This document shows, piece after piece, positions 18,575 through 23,548 of a stretch of 64,000 nucleotides of DNA (within the stretch, counting starts at the first letter, position 1; every line of letters starts with the position of its first letter). The position numbers and the translations under genes were made by a program. Origin of the DNA: Bdellovibrio sp. (GTDB taxonomy: Bacteria > Bdellovibrionota > Bacteriovoracia > Bacteriovoracales > Bacteriovoracaceae); assembly GCA_016187935.1 (NCBI GenBank), contig JACPIU010000026.1, positions 62,001-126,000 on the forward strand. The letters run 5' to 3'. The notes beneath the pieces are model-generated. The model worked only from the letters and a program-made list of their open reading frames with translations, had not been told where the DNA came from and made no database searches.

Positions 18575-18598
18575 TCTATCACTATTGATCTATCACTA
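18571..18598. repeat. Perfect 14-base tandem duplication between convergent genes
   Basis: The unit TTGATCTATCACTA occurs twice in direct succession. The first copy carries the TGA stop of the plus-strand gene, and the end of the second copy carries the TAG stop of the minus-strand gene. Confidence 0.9.
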
Positions 18599-19531
18599 GC
18601 TTTTAACTACAAAACCCCATTCAATTTTCACTATTCCACCAACAACCATATCCCTTGGTGGATTCGGAAAAGGACCAGCTCGATTGAATGACTCCACTGC
18701 AGCATCATCTAGTTCTTTTACACCACTGGTACTTTTAACTGCCACTTCAATAATATTTCCTTTAGGATCAAGCAATATTGTTAAAGACGTGATTTTATCC
18801 TGATCGGCAGCCAATCTTCTCCCAGACTTGTATAAACTATTTGCCTTTTCACGCAAGGTCTTTCCCCAATATTGTTCCAGTTGCTGTCTAATGCGAAAAT
18901 AGAAACCATAAAACTTGAATTCAGCCGTATTCAGTAATGTCATATCCCCCAAGGGAACATCCTCTATATAGTCATTATTCGATGACAGCCCTTTTCCTTT
19001 TGATCCAATTCCCTGAATTGCGGCCATTGCCATACTATCAATCCGTTTTTCTGGAAGACTATCATGGGACAAATCCGAGAGTGAAACTTTACCGTGTGGC
19101 GATTTTTTCCTTTTCTCCTGAAAAACCTGCTGCTTTGGCTTCGCCCTTTGAGCAGCCCCCTTAGAACCACCGCCCCCTTGATTGAACGAATCAACAACCT
19201 TCGCAATTGTTTGTCGATTAACAGTTTGATTTTCGCGGCTTAAGAACTTTGCATCCTTAGGTGCTTCCTTATTTCGGCTCTCTTCCGTAGTGACAACTTG
19301 CAGATTTTGTCGCTTTTGATCCTGCAAAATAATTTTAATTCCCTTTTCTGGACTCTTCCGTTCTGCCCGTGACTTTTCAAGAATATTATTGAAATCCAAG
19401 ATATTTAAATTTTTAAAAATAAATATTAAATGCAATATTGCAGAAATTAGTAAAAATACATTCAATTTATTTTTAAAAATCAGTTTCACAGGTCTTTGCC
19501 CTAAGTGTTCCTTAGAGCTGATTCGGTACAA
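18596..19531 (-). CDS. TonB-type energy transducer-like protein
   Basis: Up to 311 residues from a TTG at 19531; a GTG at 19489 is an alternative start. One membrane helix near the N-terminus (LNVFLLISAILHLIFIF), then about 170 residues of charged, disordered spacer, then a TonB C-terminal domain: ITSLTILLDPKGNIIEVAVKS, GVKELDDAAVESFNRAGPFPNPP and VKIEWGFVV. TonB proteins pass proton-motive energy to outer-membrane receptors; TonB-like C-terminal domains also occur in gliding or motor proteins. No exbB/exbD or receptor is adjacent, so partner and substrate are unknown. The spacer is Lys/Gln-rich rather than the Pro-rich spacer of classic TonB. Confidence 0.82.
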   Translation of the reverse strand: MYRISSKEHLGQRPVKLIFKNKLNVFLLISAILHLIFIFKNLNILDFNNILEKSRAERKSPEKGIKIILQDQKRQNLQVVTTEESRNKEAPKDAKFLSRENQTVNRQTIAKVVDSFNQGGGGSKGAAQRAKPKQQVFQEKRKKSPHGKVSLSDLSHDSLPEKRIDSMAMAAIQGIGSKGKGLSSNNDYIEDVPLGDMTLLNTAEFKFYGFYFRIRQQLEQYWGKTLREKANSLYKSGRRLAADQDKITSLTILLDPKGNIIEVAVKSTSGVKELDDAAVESFNRAGPFPNPPRDMVVGGIVKIEWGFVVKS

Positions 19532-19677: not shown

Positions 19678-22392
19678 TTATTGAGTTTCTAGGAGTTCCT
19701 CCTCTTCAAAAAGAGGGCCTCCTTTTTCGCCTTGTTTAGACTCAGAATAGGTCGTTGACCCTGGCTCCATCCCTTCAACAAAAGACTCGAGGATAGCTTC
19801 CGGATTATTAGAATTTACTTGGCGACCAGTGCTTTTATGAACATACATGTTCACAATACCAGGGGGTTGGGGGAATTCTGAATCTCTAAACTTCTTTAGT
19901 CCCTGATTCATAAATTCGATCCAAACAGGAAGAGCAGAACGAGTTCCTGTCTCACCATGGCCCATCGTTTTGTTATTATCAAATCCAACCCAAACTCCTG
20001 TAGTCAACTTTGTGCTATAACCTAAAAACCAAGCATCTATATAGTTACTTGTTGTACCTGTTTTGCCTGCGATATTATTGCTTATATATTTCGCCGGTCT
20101 GCCAGTTCCATTCTGTATTACTCCCTTCAAGAGCCCTGTCATCACATAGGCCAATCGTGGATCATATACCTGGCGCCCCTTGAGTTCTTGCCTAAAATCA
20201 AAAGAGGCTGAAGAATCTGAATTCACTGGCGTGGGATCAATACTGCCATTCACCGGACGAATAATTCCTTTTTCCAGAAGACGTTTCTCCTTCTTCTTTT
20301 CATCAATCTGAAAACCTGTCCCATTTTTATCCGTAATAGACAAAATCGAGACAGGCTCCACTAAACGTCCACCATTTGGAAAAACAGCGTAAGCTGACAC
20401 CAAATCAAGTAGATTTACGCCAAATGAACCGAGTGCAATACTTAGATTTTCTTCAGTTACAATTTCAAGACCAAAACGCGAAAAGATATTCATTATTTTT
20501 CGTACTCCAACATCTTCCGCCAGTTTTATAGTTGTAATATTCCTACTCTGTTCCAAACTGTGTCGAAACGTAATCGGGCCTAAATATTTTCCATCATAGT
20601 TTTTTGGTTTCCAATTGAGTTCATTTTCCTCGCCTCCACTCAAGGCTTCTGGTGAATCTAAAATAATCGAATTAGGCCGATAGCCATTTTCAAGAGCTGC
20701 TGCGTATATCAATGGTTTTATAGAAGAACCAGGCTGGCGAAAGCTTTGAACTGCTCGATTGAATTGCGATTCAAGAAAATTATTACCCCCAACGAAAGTA
20801 AAGATTTCTCCGCTCTCTGGAGAAAGAGAAATCAAAGCACCTTGAGCTTCTGGAATTTGTTCAAGAACAACAGACAAATATTTCTGTTTCTTAATCGTCG
20901 GCATCCATTTAGTTGATTCAAACTTTTTCAATCCTGTCTGGGTTAAAAATTTTTGAATAGTCGATTCTTTATCCGAGACAGATACCCAAACAACATCACC
21001 CTGCTTAAGAATTGTCGATGGTTTAGACACTGTTATATAAAACTCATGTTCCTCTGACACTTCCCTTTTTCTTGCCCATTGAAAACCATCCTGTACAATA
21101 ATTCCTGGAATACCACCAAGAGATACAAATACCAGCTTGAGTTCATCATCAACACGTGTGACTAGAGCTTTATATAAGATATCTGGTTCAAGAATTTTAA
21201 TTAAATCATCGCTTTCCACTCGCCCCATTGGAAATTTAGCATCAGGATACGCAGTCGCAAATCTGATTGAAGAATCTTTGAGTTCATCATAAACACTTTG
21301 CACGAAAGGAATTTCGTTGATTCTATTGTAATGGTCATCAATATAGAAATAGTTTGATTTCTCTTCGAGCAAAAATTTGCGTTGGTCAATATCGAATTTC
21401 TCACGCTCAGACAATGTCTCAAGATGCTGTATGGGACCTTGATATCCCTGGCGTTTGTCTATCTCCCTTACACCTTTTAAGGCCGCTTTTTCTGCTGCAG
21501 TTTGAAGTTCATAGTCTAACGATGTAACTATTTTCAAGCCATCATTAAGAAGCTTCTCCTCCCCTATAAATTCAATAACTCTTTGTCTTACCCAGTCTGT
21601 AAAATAACCTGCCTTGAACTCACCTTTTTTCTTTACACGGAATTTAATTTTTTCTTGGATCGCATTTTCATATTCGTCCTGTGTAATTTTTTTCGTATCA
21701 TACAGACGACTAAGTACATATCGCTGCCTTTTGATGGCAAAATCAGGATTGAGATAGGGAGAATATTTACCAGGTGCCACGAGTAACCCTGCTACCATGG
21801 CAGCTTCCGCTGTAGTCACTTCTTCTAAGTCTTTGTCATAGTAACCCTTCACTGCTGTTTTAATTCCATAGTAACCGCCACCAAGATAAACTTGATTTAA
21901 ATAGAGAAATAGAATTTCATCTTTGCTAAACTTTTCCTCGATCTTGAGGGCCAGAAGAAAATCTTTTACTTTTCGCGAAACCGACCTTTCCTTCGTGAGA
22001 AGTAAGGATTTCGCGACCTGCTGGGTAATCGTGCTGCCACCCTGTACCACCTTTCCCGCTTTGATGTTCATAAGCATAGCACGTAAAACACCCCAGTAAT
22101 CCACACCATGGTGTTGGTAAAAGGCATCATCTTCAGCAGCTAAAAAAGCATCAATCACTAGCTTTGGGATTTTCTCCAAAGGAACGACATCACGTTTTTC
22201 GGTTCCTATCTCGGCCAGCACTTCGCCATCCCGAGATAGAATGATCGAATGAGTCGGCGGATTGTAATCAGTCAATGAATCAATTTTTGGAAGAACGAAA
22301 GAAAAATAGGTCAAGGCACCTACAACAGATAATAGGAGTATTATTGCAAGCGCTCCAAAGCAATAAATTAAACGCAAGATCGATGGTTGCAA
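19678..22392 (-). CDS. mrcA: Class A penicillin-binding protein (PBP1A type)
   Basis: 904 residues, beginning at a TTG with GGAG about nine bases upstream. One N-terminal helix anchors it in the inner membrane. The glycosyltransferase (GT51) domain has the catalytic EDDAFYQHHGVD (Glu near 90), GGSTITQQVAKSLLL and a second conserved Glu region LALKIEEKFSKDEIL. The transpeptidase domain has the active-site Ser in QPGSSIKPLIYAAAL, the SRN triad motif and AGKTGTTSNYIDAW. An insertion of about 180 residues with OB-like character lies between them. It polymerises and cross-links peptidoglycan. It reads on the same strand as the neighbouring lipoprotein and xseB genes. Confidence 0.97.
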   Translation of the reverse strand: MQPSILRLIYCFGALAIILLLSVVGALTYFSFVLPKIDSLTDYNPPTHSIILSRDGEVLAEIGTEKRDVVPLEKIPKLVIDAFLAAEDDAFYQHHGVDYWGVLRAMLMNIKAGKVVQGGSTITQQVAKSLLLTKERSVSRKVKDFLLALKIEEKFSKDEILFLYLNQVYLGGGYYGIKTAVKGYYDKDLEEVTTAEAAMVAGLLVAPGKYSPYLNPDFAIKRQRYVLSRLYDTKKITQDEYENAIQEKIKFRVKKKGEFKAGYFTDWVRQRVIEFIGEEKLLNDGLKIVTSLDYELQTAAEKAALKGVREIDKRQGYQGPIQHLETLSEREKFDIDQRKFLLEEKSNYFYIDDHYNRINEIPFVQSVYDELKDSSIRFATAYPDAKFPMGRVESDDLIKILEPDILYKALVTRVDDELKLVFVSLGGIPGIIVQDGFQWARKREVSEEHEFYITVSKPSTILKQGDVVWVSVSDKESTIQKFLTQTGLKKFESTKWMPTIKKQKYLSVVLEQIPEAQGALISLSPESGEIFTFVGGNNFLESQFNRAVQSFRQPGSSIKPLIYAAALENGYRPNSIILDSPEALSGGEENELNWKPKNYDGKYLGPITFRHSLEQSRNITTIKLAEDVGVRKIMNIFSRFGLEIVTEENLSIALGSFGVNLLDLVSAYAVFPNGGRLVEPVSILSITDKNGTGFQIDEKKKEKRLLEKGIIRPVNGSIDPTPVNSDSSASFDFRQELKGRQVYDPRLAYVMTGLLKGVIQNGTGRPAKYISNNIAGKTGTTSNYIDAWFLGYSTKLTTGVWVGFDNNKTMGHGETGTRSALPVWIEFMNQGLKKFRDSEFPQPPGIVNMYVHKSTGRQVNSNNPEAILESFVEGMEPGSTTYSESKQGEKGGPLFEEEELLETQ

Positions 22393-22404: not shown

Positions 22405-23361
22405 TTATAATAGCTGTTTCAAATTAGTGATCTCATCCGACATCGAATTAAAGCATCTTTGTACTAAATCTTCTGGCATATTAAATTCATCCAAGGGAAT
22501 ATCCTCTAAACGCGGCTTAACCATATAATCAGCATCTTTCCATAATTCTCGTACTGCTGTGGCCACTCGCCCATACCTACCCACAAGTTGCTCGCCTCTT
22601 TTTTTAAATTCAATTGAATCATCGAGAAAATCTACCCCAATAATAAAATTGACACCAATATGCCTTAAATATTCCGTAAGATTTTTATTACTCGTTTTTA
22701 AAATATTAATATCAACTACATTTGTATCAGGATACCAAAAGGAGAAATGATTTAATTTTATTTTTTCTAATATTTGACCTTTATAAATTGGTTTCAATTC
22801 CTTTGAAGAAAGATCAGGTATTACTAATACTTTTTTTAGGTCCTGTATTTGCTCCAATTTATTATGCTTCATTGCTACAAACCCAATTTCATCTGCAAGA
22901 TAATTCAAATCTACAATTCTCTCGTTGGTGCTGTTAAATTGACGAAAAAGTTCAAATTCGATTGAACCCATATTTTCGTTTCGAGCACCGAAGTAAGCAT
23001 ATATAAGTCCTATTTCGATTCCTGAAAAAGCACTTACTTCAATTTGAGCATCAAGAAGTGCGCGCAAAATCCCTAGTGCACACACTCCGCGGGACATCCC
23101 TGGGCCAAATATCACACCGATTAGTTTTTTTTTAGATAACTGAGATACATTTAATGGTCTCTCAGATACTTCATCTAAGGCTGGACCATATTGCGATGTA
23201 GAATTTTCAGAAATCACAATACTATTGTTGGAGTGATCATTTTCCAAGATGGGCACACCCTCGGCTTGGATGGGATTCTGCTTTGGAAGAGTTGTTGTAC
23301 ATCCTATGGCAAGGAAAAGAAGTATGAATTCAGTTAAATTCATTTTCATCCAAATTTTCAT
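22405..23361 (-). CDS. Patatin-fold lipoprotein lacking the catalytic serine
   Basis: 318 residues. A lipoprotein signal peptide ends in LFLAIGC (Cys21). After a linker, residues 79-125 follow the patatin/RssA pattern: IGVIFGPGMSRGVCALGILRA (oxyanion-hole segment GPGMSRG) and SGIEIGLIYAYFGA. The nucleophile elbow G-x-S-x-G reads G-I-E-I-G, so Ser is replaced by Glu116. The C-terminus keeps the RssA-like end ADYMVKPRLEDIPLDEFN, but a DG[GA] catalytic Asp was not found. It is therefore probably a non-hydrolytic envelope protein. It overlaps xseB by 32 bases and lies 12 bases before the PBP gene, suggesting co-expression with peptidoglycan synthesis. Confidence 0.75.
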   Translation of the reverse strand: MKIWMKMNLTEFILLFLAIGCTTTLPKQNPIQAEGVPILENDHSNNSIVISENSTSQYGPALDEVSERPLNVSQLSKKKLIGVIFGPGMSRGVCALGILRALLDAQIEVSAFSGIEIGLIYAYFGARNENMGSIEFELFRQFNSTNERIVDLNYLADEIGFVAMKHNKLEQIQDLKKVLVIPDLSSKELKPIYKGQILEKIKLNHFSFWYPDTNVVDINILKTSNKNLTEYLRHIGVNFIIGVDFLDDSIEFKKRGEQLVGRYGRVATAVRELWKDADYMVKPRLEDIPLDEFNMPEDLVQRCFNSMSDEITNLKQLL

Positions 23362-23548
23362 TTAGTTGAGTTATCTTCTTTTCAATTTCGCCAAGTCTTT
23401 TCCGACATTGCTGGTACAGTTTTACGCCTTCTTCATAGAGACCAACTCCCTCATCGAGCTTCAATTTTCCAGATTCCAATTTAGCTACGATTGCTTCAAG
23501 TTGACTTAGATTCTCTTCAAAGTCTAACTGCTGTTTATCCTTTTTCAT
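23330..23548 (-). CDS. xseB: Exodeoxyribonuclease VII small subunit
   Basis: 72 residues, typical. The conserved core is FEENLSQLEAIVAKLESGKLKLDEGVGLYEEGVKL, forming the helical hairpin that wraps the large subunit XseA, with a short acidic tail. Exonuclease VII degrades single-stranded DNA from both ends. The xseA gene is not in this window. The 3' end overlaps the start of the patatin-fold lipoprotein gene. Confidence 0.93.
   Translation of the reverse strand: MKKDKQQLDFEENLSQLEAIVAKLESGKLKLDEGVGLYEEGVKLYQQCRKRLGEIEKKITQLNENLDENEFN

Follow-up and report, generated by a model that had tools for sequence, protein, structure and literature searches.

A patatin-fold envelope lipoprotein family of Bdellovibrionota without the catalytic dyad, encoded beside PBP1A in part of the phylum

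INTRODUCTION

In Gram-negative bacteria, outer-membrane lipoproteins that do not share a fold control the class A PBPs. The activators LpoA, LpoB and LpoP have in common a lipobox, a flexible or extended N-terminal part and a globular domain. LpoB has an unstructured N terminus of 54 residues (PMC9593243), and LpoP combines a disordered N terminus with a globular domain for binding to its PBP (PMC7267771). The Bdellovibrionota must build and remodel their wall during growth inside or on prey, and we found no lipoprotein assigned to PBP1A in this phylum. In B. bacteriovorus HD100, xseA and xseB correspond to bd0197 and bd0198 (PMC3593177), and bd0199 is expressed in the growth phase only (PMC5430801); for the locus tags bd0196 to bd0203, the open-access literature yielded nothing beyond these names and this expression pattern.

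The protein described here has a predicted layout resembling that of the Lpo activators and, by predicted fold, belongs with the patatins. Two kinds of described patatin are relevant: PlpD, the patatin-like phospholipase of Pseudomonas aeruginosa (PDB 5fya/5fqu), and the cytoplasmic patatins of the RssA/YchK type (NCBIfam NF007623). With PlpD, it has in common the strand-elbow-helix core and the G-x-x-x-G setting of the elbow; however, PlpD retains GTSMG and the Asp of DGG, whereas the family reported here consists of tethered lipoproteins that have Glu or Gly at the nucleophile position and lack DG[GA]. In the open-access literature searched, no earlier description of this pseudo-patatin family was found.

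RESULTS

The gene and its product

The gene lies at 22405..23361 on the minus strand of the window (the whole 64,000-nucleotide stretch of DNA that was analysed), as do all window features given below. The open reading frame and its translation, together with orthologues from a set of 160 relatives, define a protein of 318 amino acids; alternative starts exist a few codons further in, at Met5 or Met7. The signal peptide (residues 1-20, 23302..23361) consists of a hydrophobic run up to the lipobox AIGC (residues 18-21), with a helix at residues 9-19 in the structural model. The lipobox Cys21 (23299..23301) is followed by Thr, not Asp, at position +2. A flexible tether (residues 22-78, 23128..23298) shows low pLDDT (about 56-67) and no secondary structure in the model, and the patatin-like domain begins at about residue 79, after this disordered stretch.

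Within the domain, the order of motifs is F-GPGMSRG as oxyanion loop, followed by the elbow, SGIEIGLIYAYFGA. The equivalent of the oxyanion loop, GPGMSRG (residues 86-92, 23086..23106; canonical GGGxxKG), was assigned by alignment with PlpD and canonical patatins, and the nucleophile-elbow equivalent GIEIG (residues 114-118, 23008..23022) by alignment and by its strand-turn-helix conformation in the model. The codon at the position of the catalytic Ser is GAA (23014..23016), encoding Glu116. Further on, Glu135-Phe136 (22954..22959) corresponds in the 160-member alignment to a family signature, EW, with Phe in the window. Asp217 of VVDIN (22711..22713) falls roughly at the place of the dyad Asp (DG[GA]) of active patatins, in a region where the alignment has low certainty; it is not part of a DG[GA] motif and is not retained across the family.

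Assignment to the patatin superfamily

The window protein scores below threshold against the Pfam Patatin model (PF01734; 12.8 of 27.7 bits, E 0.13) and reaches 15.3 bits (E 0.008) against the RssA model NF007623, for which the equivalog cut-off is 272. Since both matches are weak, the curated models nearly miss this protein. Its relatives are matched by Patatin at E<=0.001 in all 55 of the 55 scanned from outside its own family, and 56 of the 69 proteins in a mixed relative set also match; against NF007623 the relatives score at most 100 bits, again below 272, so that scores of the family against the RssA-type model run from weak to moderate (15 to 100 bits). In a sequence-profile search, the family profile reached PlpD at E 6.8e-35.

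An AlphaFold2 model of the window protein, computed from 69 relatives, has a mean pLDDT of 81.6 and places residue 116 in a strand-turn-helix elbow (strand 111-114, helix 117-127). When this model was searched against the PDB with Foldseek, PlpD was the first hit (E 1.1e-10), followed by CapE, CapV and other patatin-type phospholipases. A second model, of a relative in genome G146 (pLDDT 85.5), matches PlpD at E 2.0e-13 and has its Glu138 in the elbow turn between strand 131-136 and helix 140-150. By sequence and modelled fold, the window protein and its relatives thus belong to the patatin superfamily. The preliminary description had recognised a patatin fold, which is sub-threshold in the window protein alone and is borne out by its relatives and by PlpD as the best profile and fold match. 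It had also pointed to RssA/YchK for comparison: the RssA model does match, weakly, but the closest solved relative is PlpD. RssA-like paralogues are present in related genomes; the canonical paralogues in the phylum form a separate clade and carry GTSxG and DGG.

Loss of the catalytic residues

A total of 160 distinct relatives were extracted across the Bdellovibrionota: 83 from the GTDB-style family of the window (f1), five from a third family (f4) and 72 from other families (members outside f1 are called non-f1 below). At the nucleophile column, f1 has Gly in 68 members, Glu in 11, Asp in two and Ser in two; the 72 proteins of other families have Glu in 68, Gly in two, Asn in one and Gln in one; all five f4 members have Gly. 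The catalytic Ser of GxSxG is thus absent from the window protein, and Ser occupies the column in 2/160 members. No member of the 160 combines GxSxG with DG[GA], and a DG[GA] string of any kind after the elbow occurs in four, none of them with GxSxG; both motifs are present in all eight of the canonical RssA-like paralogues checked from the phylum. Alignment of the family profile with PlpD gives the same picture, with GTSMG and DGG in PlpD, and G-x-G/E-x-G without DGG in the family.

The two proteins with Ser at the elbow are close relatives from genus g49, GKSFG in L113:4054-4767(+) and GESFG in L116:3821-4552(-), both with TCN codons. They are shortened (about 240 aa) and lack DG[GA], and their sister species carry Gly.

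The preliminary description had read Glu in place of the nucleophile Ser, and this stands after the codon was re-read. It had asked whether homologues in related genomes also lack Ser and the DG[GA] Asp: a phylum-wide clade lacks Ser, the Asp has been lost as well, and none of the 160 members pairs a GxSxG with a DG[GA]. A single-lineage oddity was considered and rejected, Ser loss being a property of the whole clade. Two same-genus orthologues, 79% and 70% identical to the window protein, both have GAA, which shows that the Glu116 codon is not a sequencing error. Judging from alignments and models, the patatin catalytic dyad is gone from the family; it is very probably not an active patatin, and the absence of patatin-type hydrolysis can be inferred with good support.

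Distribution and history of the family

A profile search of f1 gave matches in 89/129 genomes, some of the weaker ones being canonical RssA-like patatins, and a search of the phylum gave matches at E<=1e-30 in 239/369 genomes. Identity between genera is about 16-25%. A careful tree built from 44 proteins has a branch with support 99/96 that separates the Ser-less group from the canonical patatins of the phylum. On a larger, rougher tree, parsimony puts Glu or Gly, not Ser, at the root of the Ser-less clade and implies several separate origins or retentions of Glu within f1, at least four of them forced by well-supported branches. The codons for Gly and Glu in f1 are GGN and GAR, and GGA/GGG is one base from GAR, so that the two residues interchange by one base. 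The argument of the preliminary description, that going from Ser to Glu takes two base changes and speaks against a sequencing error, reached the right conclusion on the error, as GAA is found in three genomes of the genus, but missed the history: with Glu or Gly as the basal state, the Glu of the window need not derive straight from Ser.

For several matches (genomes G165, G153, G167, G151, G154, G166 and G163) open frames of about 800 aa were reported around the match. In the two loci read, L291 and L292, counting from the first start codon gives a gene of only about 360 aa; thus, long upstream open frames are the likely explanation.

Constraint and signature residues

Pairwise dN/dS within the genus of the window is 0.09-0.11 at dS of 1.3-1.75, a rough value because dS is near saturation. 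Among 55 non-f1 members, the Glu at the nucleophile position is 96% conserved and the Trp of the EW motif 98%, as high as the structural Gly of GPG and alongside the lipobox Cys. This Trp is found in 155 of the 160 members, the genus of the window having Phe. The conservation indicates that selection maintains this Glu across most of the phylum. Most f1 members have Gly in its place (68/83) and retain the EW motif, from which it follows that Glu is dispensable in f1 and for a function common to the family.

Lipoprotein anchor and tether

Sequence features identify the protein as a bacterial lipoprotein, with a signal peptide and a lipobox Cys that is 99% conserved in f1, as the preliminary description had predicted. 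A strict lipobox rule fired in 133 members, none with Asp at +2; the rule is too strict, since most of the 27 members that it missed carry a lipobox-like Cys. The lack of the Asp+2 inner-membrane signal would point to sorting to the outer membrane if the Lol +2 rule applies in this phylum. Measured from Cys to domain, the tether is Pro-, Ser-, Glu- and Thr-rich, with a median length of 58 residues in f1 and of 57 outside it. Its length is near the 54 residues of LpoB, and the layout is like that of LpoP. In 66/85 members of the f1 set, the tether (window 23128-23298) contains a GP motif, often as YGP; this could represent a short binding motif.

Gene neighbourhood

Twelve bases downstream of the lipoprotein gene lies the gene for a class A PBP of the PBP1A type (19678..22392; GT51, PCB_OB and transpeptidase domains by Pfam), followed by a TonB-C-like protein gene (18596..19531; Pfam TonB_2/TonB_C and synteny). 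Upstream, xseB (23330..23548; Pfam Exonuc_VII_S and synteny) overlaps the lipoprotein ORF by 32 bases. The PBP neighbour already reported for the window adjoins in all f1 members whose flanks extend far enough, in the order xseB, lipoprotein gene, PBP1A and TonB-like gene, with flg genes divergent, and the neighbours in f1 often overlap the lipoprotein gene by 4 bases on either side. No terminator-like site was found between the lipoprotein gene and PBP1A. Because the whole neighbourhood is conserved in f1, including the flg genes, synteny alone is weak to moderate evidence of a functional link.

In other families, the gene stays in the xseB operon, with xseB, ispA, dxs or tlyA upstream. The next gene in 74 non-f1 members is PBP1A in 14, a pepP-like aminopeptidase gene in 52 and neither in eight, pepP being the downstream gene in Bdellovibrio-like families. 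The f4 members adjoin sbcC, and a TonB-like gene lies just downstream in the two with that region in view. A TonB-C-like gene follows PBP1A in f1, f8, f24, f25 and f27, and is found just downstream of the f4 lipoprotein gene.

In some f1 lineages (g5 with g56, g12/g51 and g45/g20) xseB is directly followed by PBP1A and the lipoprotein gene is absent. Since the outgroup has the gene, this adjacency represents at least three losses on the PBP1A tree. These clean, repeated losses, with xseB and PBP1A left adjoining (L120-L142), amount to a natural knock-out set. When PBP1A proteins encoded beside the lipoprotein gene were compared, by domain and by site, with those lacking this neighbour, no domain was lost and only a few scattered sites differed, which gives no support for co-change of PBP1A. 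In genome G005, a 282-aa lipoprotein too divergent for the family profile occupies the same slot between xseB and PBP1A (L147:3648-4496(-)). Among 80 loci, a small set obtained by a PBP1A alignment search of named genomes, no patatin-like neighbour was seen outside the Bdellovibrionota.

The genome of the window encodes three GT51 proteins. Two lie outside the locus, at G000:C29:22551-23060 and G000:C19:136030-136530, in frames of 292 and 639 aa, and are likely to be a monofunctional transglycosylase and another class A PBP. LpoA (PF04348) had no match in the genome or genus of the window, and a search of 16 f1 genomes gave none over the cut-off. An LpoB-family gene is present elsewhere in the genome and could serve a PBP. 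For the lipoprotein itself, neither LppC nor LpoB (PF13036) was matched when the window protein and its relatives were scanned with Pfam.

DISCUSSION

The best reading of these data is an ancient pseudo-patatin lipoprotein of the outer membrane that may have been reused as a non-hydrolytic envelope factor. As for what this factor does, we favour, with a probability of roughly 0.4, a phylum-wide pseudoenzyme acting as an Lpo-like partner of the co-encoded class A PBP. A hydrolase of the PlpD/RssA type with a patatin fold would have lost both catalytic residues near the base of the Bdellovibrionota, Ser giving way to Glu or Gly and DG[GA] disappearing. The resulting envelope lipoprotein, on a tether of ~57 residues, would leave lipids uncleaved by the patatin mechanism and act by binding. 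From its outer-membrane anchor, the patatin domain would reach into the periplasm and through the peptidoglycan and dock on PBP1A, so as to stimulate or place it. LpoA, LpoB and LpoP could serve as the model for such docking, although their folds are unrelated: a patatin here, versus TPR plus a second domain in LpoA, the fold of LpoB and TPR in LpoP. If this model is right, the pseudo-patatin would work in the manner of an Lpo activator while belonging to none of these three families.

This partnership draws on the Lpo-like build (lipobox, no Asp+2 in the 133 scored, median tether of 57-58 aa) on the position next to PBP1A in f1 members with enough flank and in 14 non-f1 members, and on the lack of an LpoA match over the cut-off in the genomes searched. 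The family is a candidate Lpo-type factor in f1, and part of it is not encoded beside a PBP; PBP1A may be the partner in f1, f8, f24, f25 and f27, where we infer it with moderate support. Against the partnership count the 52/74 non-f1 members followed by pepP and the f1 lineages, at least three, that lost the gene and kept xseB-PBP1A with no change in the domains of PBP1A. The LpoB-family protein of the window genome and the conservation of the whole f1 neighbourhood count against it too. Given pepP downstream in the Bdellovibrio-like families, a PBP role would remain tentative despite the strong link in f1 and in several other families. The regulator proposed for the lipoprotein in the preliminary description was a reasonable guess.

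The main rival, in our view rather unlikely, is a lipid-binding pseudoenzyme whose pocket, empty with Gly or filled by Glu, would hold a phospholipid or an isoprenoid lipid carrier, making it a lipid sensor or transfer factor of the envelope with PBP1A as operon neighbour, not partner. The link to PBP1A is younger and narrower than the xseB-ispA-(dxs)-tlyA setting: members outside f1 follow TlyA, with IspA or Dxs often close by. In addition, the oxyanion loop G-P/G-G is retained. The gene also persists without an adjoining PBP1A in the Bdellovibrio-like families (the pepP setting), and it was lost at least three times with xseB-PBP1A retained. However, the housekeeping operon may be just the ancestral landing place.

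It appears improbable that the site has been rebuilt around the conserved Glu and EW for another chemistry (e.g., acid-base), as an active site or a ligand site in an enzyme that is no longer a patatin. Such a site would explain conservation of Glu and Trp in the non-f1 members beyond the need for structural fillers, but the f1 members with Gly keep EW, so the shared function can do without Glu, and no pattern for a second catalytic residue was found. Retained lipase activity through another Ser is far less credible still. The oxyanion loop of the window contains a chance GxSxG string, GMSRG (residues 88-92), which was considered as an alternative nucleophile and rejected as not conserved: one of the two orthologues from the genus has Ala instead of this Ser, which is rare at position 90 in the family, and no GxSxG member has a DG[GA] partner. 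Finally, a decaying gene or a sequencing error, for which only the high divergence between genera could speak, can be practically dismissed, given frames that are open in nearly all matches, a dN/dS of about 0.1, the conservation of signature residues and of synteny, and GAA in three genomes of the genus.

Going one step beyond an Lpo-like partnership with PBP1A, a predatory phylum may have made a patatin phospholipase into an outer-membrane factor dedicated to the control of its class A PBP, with the Glu or Gly as a ligand- or partner-binding element; we consider this version doubtful. If true, it would add the patatin to the PBP activators as a fold so far unknown among them. A conserved pseudo-patatin beside PBP1A, also in a Bdellovibrio-like genome, is a directly testable candidate for such control. 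The family also offers a large natural set in which a hydrolase fold has been kept after loss of its dyad, with one replacement, Glu, constant over most of the phylum.
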